From contig NZ_BOOO01000003.1 of the NCBI RefSeq assembly GCF_016863275.1, positions 1-64,000 on the forward strand: 64,000 nt of DNA. Reading direction: 5' to 3'. The stretch comes from Planotetraspora mira. Lineage in GTDB: Bacteria > Actinomycetota > Actinomycetes > Streptosporangiales > Streptosporangiaceae. Positions 52,701-62,774 of this stretch are shown piece after piece (the stretch's first letter is position 1; each line of letters begins with the position of its first letter). The notes beneath the pieces are model-generated. The model ran no database searches. It saw nothing but the letters and a program-made list of their open reading frames with translations, and had not been told where the DNA came from. Made by a program: the position numbers and the translations under genes.

Positions 52701-54050
52701 TCAGCGAGCGTGGTCAAAACGCCCGGCGACGGCGGCGCCCGTCCCCGCCATGACCACGAGCAGGGCGAAACACGCCAGATAGACGGCCGGCGTGCCGCCG
52801 AACCCCGCGAAGATCGCACCTGTGGCGGCCACCGCGACGATCGAGAAAACGGACTCGCCGATGCCGAGGGACGCGGAGTTCCTGCCCTCCTCGCCGGGCG
52901 CGGACAACTCGAGGACGAGGACGGACAGCGTCGGGTAGACCAGGCCGACGCCGAGCCCGGCGAGGACCCATCCCGCGAACGCGGCGAGCACGGGGACACT
53001 GTCGAAGACGGCCAGAGCGGTGACCGCGATCCCGGCCGCGATCAGCGCGGTGCCCACACGGAGGACGGTCGCCCTGCCGAACGATCCGCGCCCCTGGATC
53101 CACGAGCCCAGCGACCAGGCCAGCGCGCCTCCGGTGAGGGCGATGCCCGCCTGCGCCGGGCTGAGCCCCCGCTCGGACATCAGGGTGAGAGGGACGAAGA
53201 CCTCGGTGGCGAAGAACGCGCCGGCCGCGAGCCCGCGCAGGGCCACGACGGCCGGCAGGCCGCGCGCCGCCCGCAACGTCCCCGGGGGCAGCAGCCGGGG
53301 CAGCGCGAGAGCGAGGAGCACCAGGCCCACGATCGCCAGCGACGAGCCGGGCCACGACGTGCCGCTGCCGTACTGGAGGAGGGCCGCCCCCAGGGCGGCC
53401 ACCGCGCCCCACACGAGGGCCGGCACGAAGTCCCGGTTCCCGTCCGTCCCGGCGGCGGGCGGCGCGGTCCCCCGCGGCAGGCCGCGCCACAGGACGAGCG
53501 CCGCCGGAGCGGCGAGCACCGGCACGCCCAGGAACACCCACCGCCAGCTCAGCTGCTCGGCGACGATGCCGGTGATCGCGGGCCCGACCACCGAGGGCAG
53601 CACCCAGGCGGCGGCCAGCAGCGAGAAGACCCGGGGGTGCGCCTGCGCCGGGTACACCTGGGCGACCAGGACGTAGAGCGCGACGTTGAAAAGACCGCCG
53701 CCGAGCCCCTGGATGAACCGGCCCGCGAGGAACACCTCCATCGTGGGGGCCGTCCCGGCGATGAGGAGGCCGCCCATGAAGGCGGCGACCCCGGTCCACA
53801 GAGGCGCACGCGGGCCCTTCGCGTCACTCCAGCGCCCGCCCGCGACCGTCGCGATCACTCCCGCGGCCAGGCCGCCGCTGAAGGCCAGGCCGTACAGGTG
53901 GTAGCCGTCGAGCTCGCGCCCGACGACGGGCATCGCCGTCGCCACGGCCAGGTACTCGAACGCCACCAGCGTGCTCAGCGCGACCATTCCGGCGCTCAGG
54001 GCGCGCAGACGCGGGGAGAAGACGGCGGACTCGGTCGACGTGGCTGACAT
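52701..54050 (-). CDS. MFS transporter
   Basis: A 449-residue protein with about 12-14 membrane segments. The GGRWSDAKGPRAPLW stretch matches the loop 2-3 motif A of drug/H+ antiporters, and FIQGLGGGLFNVALY is also typical. Probable efflux pump; substrate unknown. The ATG at 54050 lies seven bases after TAAGGT and has no Shine-Dalgarno sequence. That -10 starts with the TAA stop of the upstream VWA gene, so transcription of MFS can begin inside the end of the preceding operon. Confidence 0.9.
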   Translation of the reverse strand: MSATSTESAVFSPRLRALSAGMVALSTLVAFEYLAVATAMPVVGRELDGYHLYGLAFSGGLAAGVIATVAGGRWSDAKGPRAPLWTGVAAFMGGLLIAGTAPTMEVFLAGRFIQGLGGGLFNVALYVLVAQVYPAQAHPRVFSLLAAAWVLPSVVGPAITGIVAEQLSWRWVFLGVPVLAAPAALVLWRGLPRGTAPPAAGTDGNRDFVPALVWGAVAALGAALLQYGSGTSWPGSSLAIVGLVLLALALPRLLPPGTLRAARGLPAVVALRGLAAGAFFATEVFVPLTLMSERGLSPAQAGIALTGGALAWSLGSWIQGRGSFGRATVLRVGTALIAAGIAVTALAVFDSVPVLAAFAGWVLAGLGVGLVYPTLSVLVLELSAPGEEGRNSASLGIGESVFSIVAVAATGAIFAGFGGTPAVYLACFALLVVMAGTGAAVAGRFDHAR

Positions 54051-54063
54051 GCCATGGACCTTA
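54050..54063 (-). promoter_or_regulatory. Leaderless -10 overlapping the VWA stop codon
   Basis: TAAGGT (54058-54063, minus strand): its first three bases are the VWA stop codon TAA. Seven bases then separate it from ATG 54050. Confidence 0.55.
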
Positions 54064-55179
54064 CGGGTGGCCGCCGGGGGCGGCCATCGGACGTTGGTCG
54101 TAGGACCGGCGCTCGATCGCCGCGGCCATCAGCTCCGGGAACGCGTCAGGTGTGCAGGCGAAGGCCGGCACCCCCATCTGCGCGAGCGCCGCCGCGTTGT
54201 CGTGGTCGAACTGCGGCGTCCCCTCGTCGGACAGGGCGAGCAGGACGATGACCTGGACGCCGGCGTCGGTCATCGCGGCCACCCGGCGCAGCATCTCCTC
54301 ACGCACGCCGCCCTCATAGAGGTCGCTGATCAGCAGGAAGATGGTGTCCGCCGGCCGGGTGACGAGGCCCTGGCAGTAGGCGATCGCCCGGTTGATGTCG
54401 GTGCCGCCGCCGAGCTGGGTGCCGAAGAGCACCTCGACCGGGTCGTGCAACTGGTCGGTGAGGTCGACGACCGCGGTGTCGAACACCACGAGCGAGGTCC
54501 TGAGCGACCGCATCGAGGCCAGGACGGCGCCGAAGACGCTCGCGTAGACCACGGAGGCGGCCATCGACCCGCTCTGGTCGATGCACAGGACGACCTCCCG
54601 CTGGACGGCCTGCTGCCTGCGGCCGTAGCCCACGAGCCGGGACGGCACCACCGTGTTCCGTTCGGGCAGGTAGTTCTTCAGGTTGGCCTTGATGGTGCGG
54701 TTCCAGTCGATGTCGGCAGCCCGCCTCGGCCGGGAGGTCCTGGCCGAGCGGTCCAGCGCGCCGGTGACGGCGGCGCGGGTCCGCCGCTCCAGCCTGGCCT
54801 CCAGCTCGGCCACCACTTTCCTGACGACCGCCCGGGCGGACTCCCTCGCCTTGTCGGGCATCACCCGGTTGAGCGACAGGAGCGTCCCGACGAGATGCAC
54901 GTCCGGCTCGACGGCCTCCAGCATCTCCGGTTCGAGGAGCAGGCGGGTCAGGTTGAGCCGCTCGATCGCGTCCTTCTGCATGACATGGACGACGGTCGAC
55001 GGGAAGTACTCCCTGATGTCTCCCAGCCATCTCGCCACCCGGGGCGCGGACGCGCCGAGACCCGCTCCCCGCTCGTAGAGCGCCGCGAGCGCGGCGTCCA
55101 TGCCGGCGTCGGCGCCCTGCAGGGCGCCCTCAGCCGCGCCTCCGAGCACCAGCCTCCACCGGCGTGCCCGCTCGTCCAT
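54061..55179 (-). CDS. VWA domain protein of the MoxR operon
   Basis: A 372-residue protein. The C-terminal von Willebrand A domain has a complete MIDAS set: DQSGSM (residues 201-206), a threonine in GGGTDIN, and an aspartate in ISDLYEGG. The N-terminal 190 residues are helical and basic. VWA proteins act with MoxR AAA+ ATPases to insert metals or remodel targets. The ATG shares a base with the stop of the DUF5682 gene. It is the last gene of the five-gene operon. It resembles E. coli YehP in layout, from memory. Confidence 0.9.
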   Translation of the reverse strand: MDERARRWRLVLGGAAEGALQGADAGMDAALAALYERGAGLGASAPRVARWLGDIREYFPSTVVHVMQKDAIERLNLTRLLLEPEMLEAVEPDVHLVGTLLSLNRVMPDKARESARAVVRKVVAELEARLERRTRAAVTGALDRSARTSRPRRAADIDWNRTIKANLKNYLPERNTVVPSRLVGYGRRQQAVQREVVLCIDQSGSMAASVVYASVFGAVLASMRSLRTSLVVFDTAVVDLTDQLHDPVEVLFGTQLGGGTDINRAIAYCQGLVTRPADTIFLLISDLYEGGVREEMLRRVAAMTDAGVQVIVLLALSDEGTPQFDHDNAAALAQMGVPAFACTPDAFPELMAAAIERRSYDQRPMAAPGGHP

Positions 55180-57326
55180 CACGCTCTCCCCAGGATTTCC
55201 AGAACGGTCCGTACGGCTCCCGCGGCCTGCTCGTCGTCGTCGGCGTCGGACACCTCGTTGGCGGGCATGGGGGCGCCGGATCTGACGCGATCGCCGATCA
55301 TGCGGCGCTCGGGCGCCGCGAAGGCCCCGAAGGTACGCCTGAGCAGCGGCAGCACGTCGACGAACGCCTCCGCCGACAGGCCAGTGAGCCAGCCGTCCAC
55401 GATCGCGAGCAGCCTCGGGTCGTGGACCAGCAGCAGGCCGCCGCCCGACAGGAAGCCCTCCATCCACGCGGCGGCCCGCTCGGGCGGGTTGCCGGAGGAC
55501 ATCGCCCGTGCCATGCGGACGGAGACGTCGTCCACGCTCGCGTCGGCGTCGAAGAGGATGCGCACGATCCGGCCCTCGATGATCCCCGGCAGTCCGGTGC
55601 GCCGGGCCAGGTTCGCGAGGGTCGCCGGCCACAGGTCGCTCTCGAGCAGCCCCACCGCGCTGTGGACGCCGTCGATCAGGGCGACCATCTGCCGGGCCGA
55701 GTCGTCGTCGAGCCCGGTCAGCGCGGGTGCCAGGCCGGCGCAGATCCGCGCGAGCAGCGAGTCGGTGATCGCGGCCAGCCCGCCGCTCCCGCGCACGTCG
55801 CCGTAGCGCTGCGCCCGGACGAGCGCGGGAAGTGCCGCCATGAGATGGGACACCTGCCCGTCGAGCGCCGCCTTGTCCTTGATCGCCTGGAGGATGTCCG
55901 GCAGCGGGCCGGCCAGGTCGGCGAACAGGCACCGCTCGACCAGCGAGGTCAGATCGGCCAGGGACGTGCCGTCCGCCGCCGCCAGTTCCCTGGCCCGGGC
56001 GGCCGCCGCGCCGTCGACCGTGATCCCCAAGGGAGCGGCCTCGATGAGGGCGATGTCGAACTCGGGATGCCACTCCAGCGTCCACGACTCCTTGAAGGTG
56101 CCCTTCCCGCGGGTCTCCCGCGTGGTCCCCCACCGCACGCCGATCAGGTTCAGCCGATGCAGCAGGCGGCTGCGCCCGAGGTCGAGCGGCTTGCGCAGGT
56201 CGAGGTCGTGCTCGCGCGGGAGAGCCTCAGGCTTGAGGCGCCACCGCCGCTGCTCCTCCCGCAGGTGGCGTTGAAGCGGGACCATCGGGGTCGAGCCCGG
56301 CACGCCGCCGAGCCGCTCCCCCACGACCATGCGGCGCTGGATGAGCTCCACGGGCAGGTCGTCGCCCTCGCACAACACGGCCCTCGCGGCCTCCGTCACC
56401 TCCGACAACCCCGCGAGAGGCCGGCCCCGGAGCCCGGCCAAGCCCTGCGCGAGCCGTACGGACTCGATCACGTGGGCGGAGGAGACCGGCAGTCCCTCCT
56501 CACGCAGGACCGCCGCGGCGCCGGCCAGCCAGCGCTCCACGGGACGGTCGGAGGCCGAGAACAGGTGGTCGTACCAGCCCGGCGACGCGACGCCCGCGCC
56601 GTACCCGCTGCGCGCGGCGAGCCGCCCGTGCGTCCACGGCACCCAGGTCATGTCGACCTTGACCTTGGGGATGCCCCGTAGCAGCCGCTCGTCCTCCGCC
56701 GCGGAGGGCAGATCGGTCAGCGCGGGGACATGCCACGCGCCGCAGACGACGGCCACGGAGCCGAACCCCTCCTTGAGCGCCCGGCGCAGCGCCCGGCGCA
56801 TGGCGGCCTCGCGCAGCGCCTCGGTGCCGGACGGCTCGTGTCCCTCCCGGATGGCCGCCATCGCCTCGGCGACCGCGTGGAGGGTCCCGCTCTCCCCGCG
56901 ATGCTCGACGACGTCGTCCCACCAGCGTTCGGGATCGTCGTAACCCGCGGCCCGGGCGAGTTCCCCGATCGGATCGAGCCGTACAGCCTCCTCCTCTTCG
57001 GGCAGGGCGAGGCTGTGCGCGGCGGGCAGGTCGCAGAAGCGCACCTCGACGCCCGCCTCGCGCGCGTAGGTGATCGCCTGCCATTCGGGTGAGAACACGG
57101 CGAACGGCCAGAAGGCGGCCCGTCCCTGCGCGTGCGCGAGGAGCGCGACCGGCGGTTCCATGCCGGGATCGCCCGCCAGCGCGACAAGCGGGTCGGCCTC
57201 CGGGGGGCCCTCGATGAGGACGACGTCCGGCTTGAGCCGTTCGAGTTCGGCGCGGACGGCCTTCGCGGAGCCGGGGCCGTGGTGCCGGACGCCCAGGATC
57301 GACGGTGCGGCGACGTCAGCCCGCAT
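55179..57326 (-). CDS. DUF5682 family protein (TIKI/TraB-like N-terminal motifs)
   Basis: A 715-residue protein of DUF5682. The N-terminal domain has GVRHHGPGS (residues 12-20), VLIEGP (E39), LREAAMRRAL (near 171-180) and VCGAWHVPAL (near 195-203). This GxxH-E-RxxxM-GxxH order resembles the TIKI/TraB/ChaN-like hydrolase superfamily; this is my reading and not an established assignment. The rest is mostly helical with a region rich in charged residues. No membrane segment is visible. It overlaps the MoxR gene by 11 bases. E. coli YehM is the comparable protein. Confidence 0.85.
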   Translation of the reverse strand: MRADVAAPSILGVRHHGPGSAKAVRAELERLKPDVVLIEGPPEADPLVALAGDPGMEPPVALLAHAQGRAAFWPFAVFSPEWQAITYAREAGVEVRFCDLPAAHSLALPEEEEAVRLDPIGELARAAGYDDPERWWDDVVEHRGESGTLHAVAEAMAAIREGHEPSGTEALREAAMRRALRRALKEGFGSVAVVCGAWHVPALTDLPSAAEDERLLRGIPKVKVDMTWVPWTHGRLAARSGYGAGVASPGWYDHLFSASDRPVERWLAGAAAVLREEGLPVSSAHVIESVRLAQGLAGLRGRPLAGLSEVTEAARAVLCEGDDLPVELIQRRMVVGERLGGVPGSTPMVPLQRHLREEQRRWRLKPEALPREHDLDLRKPLDLGRSRLLHRLNLIGVRWGTTRETRGKGTFKESWTLEWHPEFDIALIEAAPLGITVDGAAAARARELAAADGTSLADLTSLVERCLFADLAGPLPDILQAIKDKAALDGQVSHLMAALPALVRAQRYGDVRGSGGLAAITDSLLARICAGLAPALTGLDDDSARQMVALIDGVHSAVGLLESDLWPATLANLARRTGLPGIIEGRIVRILFDADASVDDVSVRMARAMSSGNPPERAAAWMEGFLSGGGLLLVHDPRLLAIVDGWLTGLSAEAFVDVLPLLRRTFGAFAAPERRMIGDRVRSGAPMPANEVSDADDDEQAAGAVRTVLEILGRA

Positions 57327-58383
57327 CGCGGCAGGCCCGGTAGAAGTCGCGCCAGTCGTCGCGGTCGCGGACCACGGCCTCGAGGTACTCCTGCCAGATC
57401 ACCCGGTCGGCCACCGGATCCTGGATGACCGCGCCGACGATCCCGCCCGCGATGTCGGCGGGACGCAGCACTCCGTCGCCGAAGTGCGCCGCGAGGGCGA
57501 TCCCGCTGGTCACCACCGAGATCGCCTCGGCCGTGCTCAGTGTGCCGCTCGGCGACTTGACCTTGGTCCGCCCGTCTGACGTCACTCCTGCGCGAAGCTC
57601 GCGGAAGACCGTGACCACGCGGCGGATCTCCTCCATCCCGGCCGGGGTCTCGGGCAGTTCCAGCGAGCGGCCGAGTTGGGCGACCCGCCGGGACACGATC
57701 TCCACCTCCTCCTCGGCGCTCGCGGGGACGGGCAGCACGACGGTGTTGAAGCGCCTGCGCAGCGCGCTCGACAGGTCGTTGACCCCCCGGTCCCGGTCGT
57801 TGGCCGTGGCGATGACGTTGAATCCCTTGGCCGCCTGGACCTCGTCGTTCAGCTCGGGGATGGGCAGCGTCTTCTCGGACAGGACCGTGATCAGCGCGTC
57901 CTGGACGTCGGAGGGCATCCGGGTGAGCTCCTCCACCCGGGCCAGCCGTCCCTCGGCCATCGCCCGCATCACCGGGCTCGGCGTCATCGCCTCGCGGGAG
58001 GGGCCCTCCGACAGGAGACGGGCGTAGTTCCACCCGTAGCGGATCGCCTCCTCGGCCGTGCCCGCCGTCCCCTGCACGAGCAGGGTGGAGTCGCCGCTGA
58101 CGGCGGCGGCCAGATGCTCGGAGAGCCAGGTCTTCGCGGTGCCAGGCACGCCCAGCAGGAGCAGTGCCCGGTCGGTCGCGAGAGTGGCCACCGCGACCTC
58201 GACGATCCGCCGCGGGCCGATGTACTTGGGCGTGATCTGGTCGCCGTCCCCGAGGATGTAGGTGGTCACCGCCCACGGGGAGAGCCGCCAGCCGGGCGGG
58301 CGTGTGCGGTCGTCGCTCTTGGCGAGGATCGCCAGCTCCTCGGCGTACAGGTCTTCCGCGTGGGGACGCAGGACGGTGGTCAC
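57316..58383 (-). CDS. MoxR-type AAA+ ATPase
   Basis: A 355-residue AAA+ ATPase. Walker A is GVPGTAKT (residues 78-85). The Walker B position reads VEEL (150-153), a weak form, and sensor 1 is ATAND (192-196); the arginine finger is in SSALRRRFN. MoxR proteins remodel other proteins together with VWA partners. GTG 58383 overlaps the DUF5691 stop by four bases. It is the counterpart of E. coli YehL by position and type. Confidence 0.92.
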   Translation of the reverse strand: MTTVLRPHAEDLYAEELAILAKSDDRTRPPGWRLSPWAVTTYILGDGDQITPKYIGPRRIVEVAVATLATDRALLLLGVPGTAKTWLSEHLAAAVSGDSTLLVQGTAGTAEEAIRYGWNYARLLSEGPSREAMTPSPVMRAMAEGRLARVEELTRMPSDVQDALITVLSEKTLPIPELNDEVQAAKGFNVIATANDRDRGVNDLSSALRRRFNTVVLPVPASAEEEVEIVSRRVAQLGRSLELPETPAGMEEIRRVVTVFRELRAGVTSDGRTKVKSPSGTLSTAEAISVVTSGIALAAHFGDGVLRPADIAGGIVGAVIQDPVADRVIWQEYLEAVVRDRDDWRDFYRACRDAG

Positions 58384-59747
58384 GAAAGCTCCTTCGACAT
58401 GTCATAACGGAACCGCAGGATGACGGCCAGCTCGGCGATCTCCTGGACGTGGCCGTGCATCGCCGGGTCGAGCCGTTCGCCCGCCAGCCGGATCAGCTCG
58501 CCGGCGTTCCAGGGCTGCGTCCCGGACGTCTCCACGATCTTCTTGAGCACGGCCTTGGCCAGCCGGGGGCCCCAGGGTCGGGCCACACCGCCCAGCATCA
58601 TGATCATCTGTCCGTCGACGGGGTGGCGGACGACCAGTTCGGCGGCTCTCGCGGACTGCTCGTCCGGCGGCAGGACGGCCAGAAGGTCCGTCAGCGGCTC
58701 GACCTCGAACAGGGCGCGAGCCCATCGCGCGTCGTGCTGCAGGATCGCCGCCCGGGTCCAGCCCATCGCGACCTCCCGGGCCCAGTCACCGACCTTCAGC
58801 TGAACGGCCCGTTCCGGAGGCAGCCCCAGATGACCGGCCCAGAAGGCCAGGGGGGTGCGGGCGATCACCTGCTGCAGCCACCAGCCGCGCTGCGCCGTGC
58901 CCGCAGGGGGCCGGGGCCTGACGCCGTCACGCTCCATCGTGCTGTCACACGCCTTCGGCGGATCCGCGCGCAACCCGCCGCCGTCCTTGACGAGGAACCT
59001 GGCGGCCCGCTCGGCCATCCGCCGCGCCAACCGCGACTCGGGCAGGCGGGTGAGCAGGTCGGCGGCGGCCTGGCGCACCTCTCTCCTTCGGTCGTCGAGC
59101 GCCGCCTCCAGAAAGGGCTCGTCGTCCATGCCCAGGTTCTCCGAGAGGAGGAGCACGAAGGCGGCCCGGTCTTCCGGCGTCTCCTTGTCCCAGCCCCGTT
59201 CGAGCAACTCCCGGGCCTGGGCGGGAGCGGCGGCGCGCAGGGCGGCAAGATAGCCTCTCCGGTCGCCGCTGGTGCCGAACTCCCACAGGTCGCCGGACGG
59301 CATGTCCGCCGCCTCGGCCAGAAGGTAGCTCCATGAGGGGTTGAGCTCCGCGAGCCATCGTCCGCGGGCCCCGGTGAGAGCGCCCAGATGCGATCGGATC
59401 GACCGGTCGCGCGCGCCGAGGTCGAGCAACCCGGGAATCAGGTGGGCGGGGACCCGCACGCCGATCGCAGCCGCGGCCTCCAGCCACTCCGGCAGCAGCC
59501 GCGCCTGCTCGCCTCCCAGCATGCGGGCGAGCCGGTCACCGGCGGCACGGGCGGCGAGCGGACGCGTCTCCTCCGCGGCGGGCGCGGGCGGGTGGCCCTC
59601 GCGCGTCCGCCGGCCGGCGCGTGCCCGCACCACCTGCACGGCCGCCTGCTCCAGCACCTCGCCAGGCGATGCGGAACGGCGGTCGGTGCCCACCAGCGCC
59701 GTGGAGACCAGGTCCTCCCATGTCACGTTCACAGCCGGTGTGTTCAC
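58380..59747 (-). CDS. DUF5691 family protein
   Basis: A 455-residue, largely helical protein of DUF5691, starting VNTPAVNVTWEDLVSTALVG. The middle has several HEAT-like helical pairs (ARELLERGWDKETPEDRAAF and REVRQAAADLLTRLPESRL), hinting at a scaffold. The GTG at 59747 overlaps the SWIM gene stop by four bases; a second GTG at 59732 is also possible. Its role in the MoxR-VWA system is unknown. The C-terminal region ends IAELAVILRFRYDMSKELS. Confidence 0.85.
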   Translation of the reverse strand: MNTPAVNVTWEDLVSTALVGTDRRSASPGEVLEQAAVQVVRARAGRRTREGHPPAPAAEETRPLAARAAGDRLARMLGGEQARLLPEWLEAAAAIGVRVPAHLIPGLLDLGARDRSIRSHLGALTGARGRWLAELNPSWSYLLAEAADMPSGDLWEFGTSGDRRGYLAALRAAAPAQARELLERGWDKETPEDRAAFVLLLSENLGMDDEPFLEAALDDRRREVRQAAADLLTRLPESRLARRMAERAARFLVKDGGGLRADPPKACDSTMERDGVRPRPPAGTAQRGWWLQQVIARTPLAFWAGHLGLPPERAVQLKVGDWAREVAMGWTRAAILQHDARWARALFEVEPLTDLLAVLPPDEQSARAAELVVRHPVDGQMIMMLGGVARPWGPRLAKAVLKKIVETSGTQPWNAGELIRLAGERLDPAMHGHVQEIAELAVILRFRYDMSKELS

Positions 59748-61033
59748 AGCCGTACCACCTGGCCTTCCTCGTCCCATACCGTCAGCGGGCGCAACCCGCG
59801 CGGCGTCCATTCGGCGGCGACCGTCACCGGACGCCCGCCGGACACGGCCAGCAGCCGCCACGGCACGCCGCCCGCCGGGTGCAACGGGAGCCCGTTCCCG
59901 CTCTCGTCGACGAGGCTCTCCGTGGAGGGGATCACGTCCCCGAGGACGACGGGCCAGGAATCGGCCCAGGGGTCGCCGGCCAGCACCTCGGCGATCCGGC
60001 CCGGGACCCGGGAGAGCTTCGTCCCGGCCGGAGGTCCAGCGGTCGCGGGGCCGTACCGCTCGGCGACGAGCGCGCGCACCGGGGACGCCCCGGGGTAGTA
60101 GGCCAGGGCTGCGTCGATGGTCGTGCCCGTGACGAGCGACGCGTCCAGTGCCTGGCCGATCGGCGCGAACGACAACACCAGCGCGGCCCGGCCCGTCGCC
60201 CTGCCCTGCAGCCAGACCCGGCGCGCGACCAGCCGGTCCTGCTCCTCGTCTCTGGCGCCGACCACGTCCCAGTCGTCTCTGATCCACGGCGACGCGAGCA
60301 CGTCCTCCCGGATGATCGGGAACCCGACCCGCGACCGGACGGTCTCCGCGAGGCCCGCGGGAAGCCCGGCCGCACGGCGATGCGCGACGGCCAGCAGATG
60401 GATCAGGGCGTACTCCTCCAGCAGGAGACCGGGCCAGTCCTCCTCACGCAGCACGCGGGACAGCCGGGACACGGCGCCGGCCACTCCGGGGGCCTGCGCG
60501 TCCACCAGGCGCCTGCCGAGCTCGTCCCAGTCGGCGAGGCCGGTCTGCCGCGCTCCCGCGATGCCGTGCGCGATCTGGTCGGTCAGCCATCGCTCCAGCT
60601 CCGACAGTCCGGCCGCGACCCTGCTCTCCCGCTGGGCGGAGCCGCTCGATGGCCGGGACCCCTTCGCGGGCTCACGCTCGCGCCTGTCCTGCTGCTCAGC
60701 CCGGCTGCGCCGTTGCTCGAGCCATTCGGTCACCCATCCGGCGGGCGCGCCGCCGTCGGGCACCCCGTCCGACGCCCATAACAGCAGGAGCCCGAGCGCG
60801 TGCTTGCATGGGAACTTCCTGCTCGGGCAACTGCACTTGTAGGCCGGTTCGGAGAGGTCGACGCACGCCCGGTACGGCGTGGCGCCGCTGCCCTTGCATT
60901 CGCCCCAGACCACGTCGGGGAGGGCGCCGCTGCCCGACCACTTCCCCGGCGCGCTCACCCCGGCCGCCGCCTTCTGCGACGCCGCGTCGGGGGCCAGAGA
61001 GAGCACCTGGTCCCGGCTCCACCGTTCGATCAC
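59744..61033 (-). CDS. SWIM zinc-finger protein, first gene of the MoxR operon
   Basis: A 429-residue protein with an N-terminal SWIM motif, C67, C69, C76, H78 (CSCPSRKFPCKH), followed by a charged linker and a long conserved C-terminal half I cannot name. It starts the five-gene operon. GTG 61033 lies seven bases after TAGTGT and has no Shine-Dalgarno sequence, so a leaderless mRNA is expected; an earlier ATG at 61114 would give an unlikely extension. The SWIM domain may bind DNA or another operon protein. It is the counterpart of E. coli YehQ. Confidence 0.9.
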   Translation of the reverse strand: MIERWSRDQVLSLAPDAASQKAAAGVSAPGKWSGSGALPDVVWGECKGSGATPYRACVDLSEPAYKCSCPSRKFPCKHALGLLLLWASDGVPDGGAPAGWVTEWLEQRRSRAEQQDRREREPAKGSRPSSGSAQRESRVAAGLSELERWLTDQIAHGIAGARQTGLADWDELGRRLVDAQAPGVAGAVSRLSRVLREEDWPGLLLEEYALIHLLAVAHRRAAGLPAGLAETVRSRVGFPIIREDVLASPWIRDDWDVVGARDEEQDRLVARRVWLQGRATGRAALVLSFAPIGQALDASLVTGTTIDAALAYYPGASPVRALVAERYGPATAGPPAGTKLSRVPGRIAEVLAGDPWADSWPVVLGDVIPSTESLVDESGNGLPLHPAGGVPWRLLAVSGGRPVTVAAEWTPRGLRPLTVWDEEGQVVRL

Positions 61034-61046
61034 GCGCCGCACACTA
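61033..61046 (-). promoter_or_regulatory. Leaderless -10 of the SWIM-MoxR-VWA operon
   Basis: TAGTGT (61041-61046, minus strand), seven bases, then GTG at 61033. Confidence 0.5.
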
Positions 61047-61077
61047 GCCACACCCGCCGACAAATCCACTCGCCTCC

Positions 61078-61180
61078 TCACCCGGCGGCGATCACTTCGA
61101 TCTCCACCAGCCAAGTGGCACCCGCCGCGCCTGTGGGGTCCAGCCCCATCGTCCCGGAGACGACCTTGCGCTCCTGGACG
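61078..61180 (-). pseudogene. Internally deleted RidA-like remnant
   Basis: After the MBL-Rieske stop, another frame reads KVVSGTMGLDPTG directly joined to AAGATWLVEIEVIAAG and a stop at 61078. The first part resembles the N-terminal strand motif of RidA proteins and the second their C-terminus; about 80 middle residues are missing. No start codon is clear. I infer decay of a RidA gene. Only a database search can confirm it. Confidence 0.4.
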
Positions 61181-61183
61181 CGG

Positions 61184-62743
61184 TCAGTCCATACGGCGCG
61201 TGGGCAGCGGGTCGCAGCGGGCGTTGAGACAGGCCCCGGTCTCCAGGTCGAACGTGAGGTTGTGACCCAGACAGCGCACCTTCCCATCCTCGACGATGGC
61301 TCCGATGGTCAGGTCGGCTCCTGCATGCGGGCAGTAGCGCGCGATCTCATACCTCTGACCGCCGTCCTCCACGACGATGCGCTCGGACGCGTCCCGCCTG
61401 GTTTCGTACGCCTCCACCGCATCGAGTGCCACGGCGTCGGCGAACTTGAGGAAAGTGATCAGATAGCTGTTGTGGACGTCGGGGTCGCGATCGAGCTCTG
61501 CCCGCAGCGAGAGGAAGAGGTCCTCCCAGCCCGCACGCTTGGTCAGTACGGCGTCCAGCCAGCGTCCCGCGACCTTGATCCGGTATTGCACGCGGGCTGA
61601 CAGGTCAGCGTGGACCACGTCGATCCCGTCGGGGGTGATGCGCACGTCCCAGAGTCCTCCGGCGTCGCCGCTGACCTCGAACCGCACGGTCATGTCTATG
61701 CGCGTCAGGAAATATGGACTCAGCATGCCCAGTCTGGCGAAATAGGCGGCGAACCGCTCATACAGGTCGCCCTCCGGCTCCGGGTGGGCGTGCTTGAAGT
61801 GGCGGATCTGTTCCGCGCGCTCCTCCGCGTATCGCGCCAGATAGGCCTCGCGTCCCGTCGAGTAGGAGAACTTGGCCGAGACCGGATCGCGCGTCACGAC
61901 ACAGGTGTCCAGGTCAAGGACGTCGCCCGGCCTGAAGTCTGCCCACCGCTGACGTGGAAGGTGCTCGCTCAGCCATGCGGCCGCCGCCTCGGCGTTGATG
62001 AAGGCTCCGTCCTCAGGCCGCAGCACCCAGTTGTGCTGGAAGAGCTCGGGATCGAGGAAACACGGCGGGCCGGCGAACGGAACTGCGAGCTCCGGGCTCG
62101 TCACGCGCACGAGCCGTTGGACTCCGCGGAGCTTCGCGACGCGTTTCTCCATCGCTATCCGGCGCATCTCGTCCGGAGGATAGGCGTAGCACATCGGGTG
62201 CCAGGACGCACCCGATGCCTGGAGCGCCATCAGATCGATGCGCCCTCCCGCAAGATGCTTGGCTCGCCTCGCCTGTTCTGCGGTGAGCATCGCGTCGTTG
62301 CAGTCGAGCACCGTCCGCCCGCCCAGAGAGAACAGCAGTGCGGCGTCGTGGTATCGCGGTGACGGCTCAGGAATCGCCATCACCCACGAGCCGCTCTCTC
62401 CCAGCGGATGCCTCTTCCACGGCTCCAGCTCAGTGACCGGGTTCGCGCAGACGCGTGACAGCAGATCGCGGAAGATCGGCGCCGGATACCTCGGGATCAG
62501 CACGCGGGTCCGGCGGGGGAGCCGCTCCAGGACCCACGGATCGAGGTGGTCCGCGTGCTCGTGGGAAATCACGAGATAGTCGACGTCGACCAGCCGCGTC
62601 AGGTCGAGGTGATCGTTCCTCGGGTACGGGAACCATGATCCGAGAAAGGCTCCGGACGGGGAGAACCAGGGATCGACGAGAACCCTGAGACCTTCCGCTT
62701 CGAGCGCCATTCCCGCGTGTCCCAGAAAGGTGATGCCAGTCAC
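61184..62743 (-). CDS. MBL-fold hydrolase fused to C-terminal Rieske domain
   Basis: A 519-residue two-domain protein. The N-terminal metallo-beta-lactamase domain has HEHADHLD (H61, H63, D65, H66) and VLDCNDAM. The C-terminal about 60 residues fit a Rieske [2Fe-2S] domain: CPHAGADL (C, H near 471, 473) and CLGHNLTF (C, H near 491, 494). The pairing recalls CMP-N-acetylneuraminate hydroxylase (CMAH), where the Rieske part is N-terminal; here it is C-terminal. Substrate unknown. GTG 62743 follows GAGGAG by seven bases. Middle residues 160-430 match no family I can name. Confidence 0.85.
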   Translation of the reverse strand: MTGITFLGHAGMALEAEGLRVLVDPWFSPSGAFLGSWFPYPRNDHLDLTRLVDVDYLVISHEHADHLDPWVLERLPRRTRVLIPRYPAPIFRDLLSRVCANPVTELEPWKRHPLGESGSWVMAIPEPSPRYHDAALLFSLGGRTVLDCNDAMLTAEQARRAKHLAGGRIDLMALQASGASWHPMCYAYPPDEMRRIAMEKRVAKLRGVQRLVRVTSPELAVPFAGPPCFLDPELFQHNWVLRPEDGAFINAEAAAAWLSEHLPRQRWADFRPGDVLDLDTCVVTRDPVSAKFSYSTGREAYLARYAEERAEQIRHFKHAHPEPEGDLYERFAAYFARLGMLSPYFLTRIDMTVRFEVSGDAGGLWDVRITPDGIDVVHADLSARVQYRIKVAGRWLDAVLTKRAGWEDLFLSLRAELDRDPDVHNSYLITFLKFADAVALDAVEAYETRRDASERIVVEDGGQRYEIARYCPHAGADLTIGAIVEDGKVRCLGHNLTFDLETGACLNARCDPLPTRRMD

Positions 62744-62774
62744 TGCCGCGCTCCTCGGATCCGGCACACTGGCA

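Follow-up and report, generated by a model that had tools for sequence, protein, structure and literature searches.

The first 64,000 nucleotides (nt) of contig NZ_BOOO01000003.1 of the actinomycete Planotetraspora mira (assembly GCF_016863275.1), the stretch referred to here as the window, carry on the minus strand, from 61033 to 54061, five overlapping genes that encode, in that order, a SWIM zinc-finger protein, a DUF5691 protein, a MoxR-type AAA+ ATPase, a DUF5682 protein and a von Willebrand factor A (VWA) protein. This operon is a real and widespread bacterial gene set with a four-gene cousin in Escherichia coli, yehL-yehM-yehP-yehQ. The interpretation that we favor, with a probability of roughly 0.57, is that the products form one ATP-driven machine of the YehL (MoxR) type that carries its own enzyme, DUF5682, as a hydrolase of the TIKI/TraB/EreA/ChaN-like kind. 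The E. coli genes are near-core yet have no assigned function in the portions of the literature examined, and the predicted enzyme-like fold of DUF5682, with nine residues as candidates for its active site, opens a so far untouched system to direct tests; if the interpretation is true, the range of clients known for MoxR/VWA pairs is widened.

An earlier sequence-only reading of this DNA had described five minus-strand genes overlapping by 1-11 bases and combining an AAA+ ATPase, a VWA protein with a complete metal-ion-dependent adhesion site (MIDAS), a SWIM protein and two DUF proteins, and both halves of that description are borne out. Successive overlaps are 4, 4, 11 and 4 nt, the last becoming 1 nt if the VWA gene starts at the alternative ATG at 55179, and the Pfam search that the reading had proposed for each protein places all five above the curated cut-offs. 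The SWIM gene (59744..61033, GTG start) encodes 429 amino acids (aa), matches PF04434 with 26 bits and has its CxC...CxH ligands at 60835-60800; the DUF5691 gene (58380..59747, GTG start, 455 aa; PF18944, 449.5 bits) is predicted to specify a HEAT-like helical solenoid. The MoxR/YehL-like ATPase follows (57316..58383, GTG start, 355 aa; PF07728 (AAA_5), 131.1 bits), with Walker A at 58152-58129 and the Glu-Glu of Walker B at 57933-57928, and then the DUF5682 gene (55179..57326, ATG start, 715 aa; PF18934, 865.9 bits), which is present in a single copy in this genome. The last gene (54061..55182, GTG start, 373 aa) encodes a VWA_CoxE protein (PF05762, 193.6 bits) whose complete MIDAS consists of DxSxS at 54579-54565, a threonine at 54402-54400 and an aspartate at 54324-54322. 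No operon protein scored above cut-off in a search of NCBIfam (MadB reached 43.7 bits against the 475 required), and an Rfam scan of 53800-61400 gave no match at the gathering score.

That these genes belong together is best seen from their order in other genomes. We compared the best 80 of 582 confirmed DUF5682 matches in GTDB genomes, a sample skewed to close actinobacterial relatives, and in 66 of these 80 loci at least 5.5 kb before and at least 2.2 kb after DUF5682 are available. All five genes are adjacent in 66 of the 66, colinear as in the window in 43 and with SWIM-DUF5691 divergent from MoxR-DUF5682-VWA in the other 23, an arrangement found in Streptomyces and Streptantibioticus. Among the 14 loci left out for short flanks, three (L050, L054, L096) still have the complete set and seven (L043, L046, L076, L077, L087, L089, L103) lack genes at contig ends. 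Two gaps are unexplained: in L070 SWIM was not seen and DUF5691 is partial, though 10 kb upstream is present, and in L085, where DUF5691 is spread over three overlapping frames, perhaps through poor sequence, VWA was not seen though 1.7 kb downstream is present. The sequence-only reading had proposed this comparison and named dispersal of the genes in related genomes as the outcome that would speak against it; the set largely passes, with the two gaps and two cyanobacterial metagenome-assembled genomes described below as the qualifications.

The association extends beyond adjacency in close relatives. In two samples of 197 actinobacterial genomes, taken as identical genomes, DUF5682 is above cut-off in 18 and DUF5691 in 16, and all 16 fall within the 18, on the same contig each time (Fisher p 1e-21), while three more DUF5691 matches, below cut-off, occur in genomes of the same sample that lack DUF5682. 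The five genes are also together on plasmids of Deinococcus, with one small extra gene, and of Rhizobium, and because phyla other than the Actinomycetota have these five genes as well, the set lies far beyond chance. The pairwise distance matrices of the five proteins correlate with r of 0.86-0.95, values that shared ancestry inflates. On plasmid pOB3b3 of Methylosinus trichosporium OB3b the first four genes are annotated in order with no VWA gene annotated; VWA matches in three frames follow DUF5682 there (L032:9154-10379), and the copy looks broken. In Fusobacterium vincentii a 637-aa frame lies at the DUF5691 position, between SWIM and MoxR (L033:3950-5863).

The sequence-only reading had also likened the operon to the yeh genes of E. 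coli. The families agree: in E. coli K-12, yehL is a MoxR gene, yehM encodes DUF5682 (330.8 bits), yehP is VWA_CoxE and yehQ is SWIM. The likeness does not extend to DUF5691, which was not found in E. coli by a profile-search control. The YehL-type arrangement of adjacent MoxR, DUF5682 and VWA_CoxE genes, with E. coli yehLMP as reference, is present in the window. DUF4132 lies next to MoxR, DUF5682 and VWA in Agrobacterium, Iodobacter and one actinobacterial contig, and a DUF4132 protein with a WGR domain adjoins MoxR-DUF5682-VWA in a Streptomyces-like second copy. We accordingly distinguish a class A, the SWIM + DUF5691 sets to which the window belongs, from a class B, the DUF4132 sets of E. 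coli type; a third type (L146) has the VWA gene ahead of MoxR. The common core across the classes is MoxR, DUF5682 and VWA. As annotated in E. coli MG1655, yehQ measures 1845 nt (L029:14101-15945) and in five other E. coli records 2001-2004 nt (L151-L155); the K-12 copy may be shortened. A YehL subfamily is named in PMC3893208, with no function given for it in the available part of that source, and excerpts of other papers mention the yeh genes in passing: yehM was mutated in E. coli evolved under copper (PMC12409786) and appears in a list of transcripts (PMC12114223), and yehQ was one of the constructs in work on butanol tolerance (PMC6442406). The open-access literature searched, outside which most subscription literature falls, names neither DUF5682 nor DUF5691.

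The enzymatic part of our interpretation rests on DUF5682. An AlphaFold2 model built from 35 sequences (mean predicted local distance difference test score, pLDDT, 88.7; predicted template modelling score 0.83) has an N-terminal alpha/beta domain with a TIKI/TraB-like fold (about 57326-56607, to about residue 240), containing the parallel beta-sheet core with flanking helices of the TIKI/TraB/EreA/ChaN type, and C-terminal helical repeats (about 56024-55269). When the model was compared with known structures by VIA-align, the top three rows were Tetrahymena complex IV entries (Z 9.9-10.1 over 180-183 residues at 4.3-4.6 Å, covering model residues 1-211), the best of them matching one complex IV chain with Z 10.1 over 180 residues; HopBA1 ranked tenth, over 146 residues at 4.2 Å (model residues 1-206), and most of the remaining rows match the helical part. 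A TraB-family protein is listed among the compact complex IV subunits in the accessible text of the supercomplex study PMC10060162. The best match in a viral fold library was likewise a TraB-family protein (probability 1.00, E 0.015, TM-score 0.40 on the target). EreA, ChaN and Bcr135 are not among the matches in the PDB fold list, an absence that is not probative for this method.

Many residues of DUF5682 are invariant, and three of them follow predicted strands of this domain. In an alignment of 119 rows, which holds the window gene twice (L001) and one other gene twice (L016/L025), and in which identity to the window falls to about 20%, H15, E39, E81, D99, W136, E141, R160, R172, E173, M176 and H199 are invariant (119/119) and H16 is conserved in 117 rows. 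His15 (codon 57282..57284), with His16 beside it, follows the predicted strand 9-13; Glu39 (57210..57212) follows strand 35-38; and His199 (56730..56732), in a GAWH motif, lies just past strand 191-196. These three follow their strands as do the catalytic His, Glu and His of TIKI/Ere enzymes. In the portion of PMC6254334 available, the TIKI superfamily comprises HopBA1, ChaN, Bcr135 and PMT, and a 2His/2Glu active site is placed near strands 4, 5 and 7 (core-sheet strands 1, 2 and 4). From the predicted fold and the invariant residues DUF5682 looks enzyme-like, and on the model MoxR and VWA would probably serve it as a hydrolase of the TIKI/TraB/EreA kind.

Several observations weigh against this interpretation. 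The Z of 7.5 for HopBA1 lies in a range that possibly reflects just a common arrangement, and the identity of the chains behind the likeness to TraB (chain DQ of 8BQS/8B6H and chain E of 7W5Z) as the TraB-family subunit is one that we infer to be probable. With the DUF5682 model Foldseek matched neither a PDB nor a viral structure at E <= 0.001, and profile searches of the PDB with DUF5682 gave no meaningful match. A valine (V13) stands where TIKI/Ere enzymes carry a glutamate shortly before the first histidine. Aligned by hhalign with an erythromycin-esterase alignment of seven relatives, two of them from the window's own genome, the N-terminal domain reached P 0.01 with a probability of 4% over 36 columns. 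To these come the missing DUF5691 match in E. coli and the dispersal of the set in two cyanobacterial metagenome-assembled genomes (L088, L115), where VWA, the sole gene sought on other contigs, lies on a separate contig from DUF5682. The register of the short hhalign match sets RExxM...H of DUF5682 on RDxxM...H, in the right order; with the whole of DUF5682 the P was 0.07, and global hhalign was uninformative, a DUF5691 control giving P 0.25. With an hhalign P of 0.01, sequence alone leaves the link to TIKI unproven, and in Pfam the protein scores above cut-off for the DUF5682 family and no other. Two possible sequence bridges were set aside: TraB (PF01963) matched in 1 of 60 actinobacterial genomes and 0 of 11 further genomes or records, the one protein having no plasmid relative found and no histidine after the GT of the first strand, and ChaN (PF04187) gave 0 of 41 matches.

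The motifs of MoxR, VWA and SWIM are complete. MoxR keeps G78 and K84 of Walker A and N195 of sensor 1 in 114 of 114 rows and the arginines of its RRF motif in 113 and 114 of them; in the VWA protein D202, S204 and S206 of the MIDAS are found in 108 of 108 rows and T261 and D287 in 107; and the CxC...CxH ligands of SWIM are kept in 75 of 75 aligned rows, all three row sets including the window likewise. The window proteins thus have the YehL-type features intact: Walker A and sensor 1, an arginine finger and the MIDAS. Walker B is Glu-Glu, not Asp-Glu, in all 114 MoxR rows, that of E. coli YehL included; this is unusual for an AAA+ ATPase and is a possible hallmark of the YehL type. The nearest solved chains to MoxR by sequence are Midasin and NorQ. 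The AlphaFold2 model of DUF5691 (pLDDT 90.9) gave a fold list led by HEAT/ARM proteins, with deoxyhypusine hydroxylase at Z 10.0 over 125 residues and 3.7 Å, Z values near 10 being common among helical repeats.

Fused genes hint at how the proteins may be grouped. SWIM and DUF5691 share one open frame in nine loci (Hymenobacter, three Actinoplanes, Phytohabitans, Symbioplanes and three Nocardia), and DUF5682 and VWA do so in six actinobacterial loci outside the five-gene class, the fusions being called from stop-to-stop frames in which internal start codons are possible. They suggest that SWIM contacts DUF5691 and that DUF5682 contacts VWA, and because of them we propose that SWIM and DUF5691 form one sub-assembly and DUF5682, VWA and MoxR another. 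Directly upstream of MoxR and a fused DUF5682-VWA frame in one locus lies a 1629-aa frame (L147:12758-17644) with no Pfam match at E 0.01.

In the machine that we envisage, the MoxR ring would be the motor and the MIDAS-bearing VWA protein its adapter, and together they would act upon DUF5682, composed of an N-terminal hydrolase domain and a C-terminal helical-repeat platform. ATP turnover would open, load or activate the active site of DUF5682, or feed substrate to it, and the SWIM zinc finger with HEAT-like DUF5691 would constitute the second sub-assembly, probably selecting substrate or location. The physical complex, the catalysis and the direction of action are what we infer from these data. 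A multi-protein MoxR/VWA remodelling machine had been thought plausible from the sequence, and co-occurrence, kept order, gene fusions and complete motifs support it. A bolder extension, which we offer as a tentative conjecture, is a new class of ATP-gated hydrolase. In it DUF5682 would be a peptidase of TIKI fold driven by a MoxR ring and its MIDAS adapter, and the modules for recognition would be interchangeable, either SWIM + DUF5691 or DUF4132/WGR, the latter with SWIM or without it. Such a machine would process proteins as part of the core equipment of E. coli and Streptomyces-like bacteria, next to Clp, Lon and FtsH.

Two of the alternatives keep a MoxR/VWA machine and place its client elsewhere. 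DUF5682 might have a TIKI/ChaN-like fold without being a hydrolase, serving as a binder of haem, metal or nucleotide or as a scaffold, while the machine remodels a separate client. The fold family does include a member without the catalytic set, PMT lacking the 2His/2Glu motif in the available part of PMC6254334, DUF5682 itself departs from the usual pattern at its first glutamate, and its large helical half, as modelled, fits a scaffold role; against this, nine charged or histidine residues invariant in every row, among sequences of which some pairs are about 20% identical, exceed what a scaffold needs, and we consider this alternative unlikely. The operon might instead be a classic MoxR/VWA cofactor-maturation pair that inserts a metal or cofactor into an enzyme encoded elsewhere, with the other three proteins as accessories. 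Several MoxR proteins serve metalloenzymes (PMC3893208, in the part available), the VWA protein is of the CoxE family and NorQ stands among the nearest MoxR relatives of known structure. Comparison of the window's own flanks nonetheless finds none of its six flanking genes in more than 8 of the best 80 loci, and in almost all loci with flank DUF5682 stays next to the MoxR and VWA genes; we consider such a pair improbable. The sequence-only reading had remarked that no metal cofactor enzyme lies next to the operon; this needs qualifying, as DUF5682 probably has an enzyme fold with an invariant His/Glu/Asp/Arg set in its model, and for that reason the client may sit inside the operon.

The remaining alternative, an anti-phage or other conflict system akin to the ternary MoxR-vWA systems that Kaur et al. 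2020 described, takes up the defence function that the sequence-only reading had thought plausible, and in its favor some plasmid copies, in Hymenobacter and Iodobacter, have genes for restriction or nucleases nearby. Excerpts of PMC10910872 and PMC12839542 mention vWA-MoxR-VMAP sets close to CRISPR loci as well as iSTAND-MoxR-vWA systems; SWIM, yeh, TraB and DUF4132 do not occur in the accessible portion of Kaur et al. 2020 (PMC7159879). PADLOC-DB 2.0.0 found no defence system in the window operon, the MoxR core giving faint matches to two models of IetA over about 30 residues (E 0.0027 and 0.019); Pfam detected neither any of the four third components known for the ternary systems nor an effector domain in the 373-aa VWA protein; and bpMoxR scored 25.4 bits, below its cut-off of 27. 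Distribution also speaks against a conflict role. Counting DUF5682 of any class above cut-off, not the five-gene set, it occurs in all 5 genomes sampled from the window's genus, in 101 of 120 from its family and in 148 of 150 from a Streptomyces-like genus, and with 18 of 197 in the phylum sample the system is far from universal. At least 80% of the yehLMPQ stretch is found in one place in 5162 of 5426 E. coli genomes; the frames of yehL, yehM and yehP are intact in the five strains checked, with a mean omega (nonsynonymous to synonymous rate ratio) of 0.04, 0.14 and 0.06, respectively, over the 10 pairs. In these groups the system seems to be stably maintained by purifying selection, and the near-core status of DUF5682 in E. 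coli and the Streptomyces-like genus is not what a typical defence island would show. For a viral origin, IMG/VR was scanned with a pattern, which gave 27 stretches and no confirmed relative. An unverified 14-kb contig from human faeces labelled bacteriophage (L035, MT835988.1) carries MoxR-DUF5682-VWA and may be a bacterial fragment. The proposal of a defence function is weakened by these results to the point where we hold a conflict system to be rather improbable, and we think it likelier that the operon has a conserved task in the cytosol, in housekeeping or under stress, than that it is a phage-defence island.

Upstream of the operon, the block 61034..61063 (minus strand) is conserved and is a candidate leaderless promoter, with TTGTCG at 61063-61058, TAGTGT at 61046-61041 and a 7-nt spacer to the GTG start. 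Ten rows were compared, the window and 9 of 18 relatives, the other nine, mis-anchored or without the anchor word, having been dropped after inspection; the 32 nt preceding the start share 51% pairwise identity, against 28% for the 43 nt above. A TANNNT box stands 7 nt before GTG in eight of the ten, at 6 nt in one (L047) and in one not at all (L045); among the dropped relatives, L058 and L064 seem by eye to have TANNNT 6 nt before a start codon. The single leaderless promoter proposed at 61033 is plausible and unproven: the conserved box fits a leaderless transcript, and a sigma-70 scan found no promoter. The TTGTCG/TGTCG-like block, 17 nt upstream of TAGTGT from start to start, is kept in most compared relatives; as a standard -35 element it is doubtful because its distance to TAGTGT is too short, and it may instead serve as an operator or belong to a promoter of non-standard type. 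The genes flanking the operon in the window do not belong to the conserved set. In the best 80 loci SWIM is found in 75, DUF5691 in 73, MoxR in 77 and VWA in 75, and of the window's flanking genes MBL-fold is found in 0, MFS in 6, enolase-like in 8 and three others in 3-6. The upstream neighbor (61184-62767), which to the eye has an MBL-fold look with a Rieske-like C-terminus, is the one found in 0 of 80.

Compared with known systems, the operon shares with the MoxR-vWA ternary conflict systems (Kaur et al. 2020) a MoxR, a VWA and a further component, and differs in that VMAP, iSTAND, FtsH and beta-propeller were not found in it by Pfam. E. coli yehLMPQ resembles it in having MoxR, DUF5682, VWA_CoxE and SWIM genes in one run, and differs in the DUF4132 protein YehI upstream and in the last position of its SWIM gene. 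To the TIKI/TraB/ChaN/erythromycin-esterase fold (HopBA1, Bcr135, ChaN, TraB) DUF5682 is linked by its predicted alpha/beta core and the invariant His-Glu-His after core strands, whereas it lacks a significant sequence match and the first glutamate, and has a long helical C-terminal half and a MoxR-VWA operon around it. NorQ-NorD, CbbQ-CbbO, CoxD-CoxE and RavA-ViaA each consist of a MoxR ATPase and a MIDAS-bearing VWA partner, a combination also present in the window. Those pairs serve a metalloenzyme or a respiratory complex (in part after the available text of PMC3893208), whereas the constant partner of the pair in the window is DUF5682.

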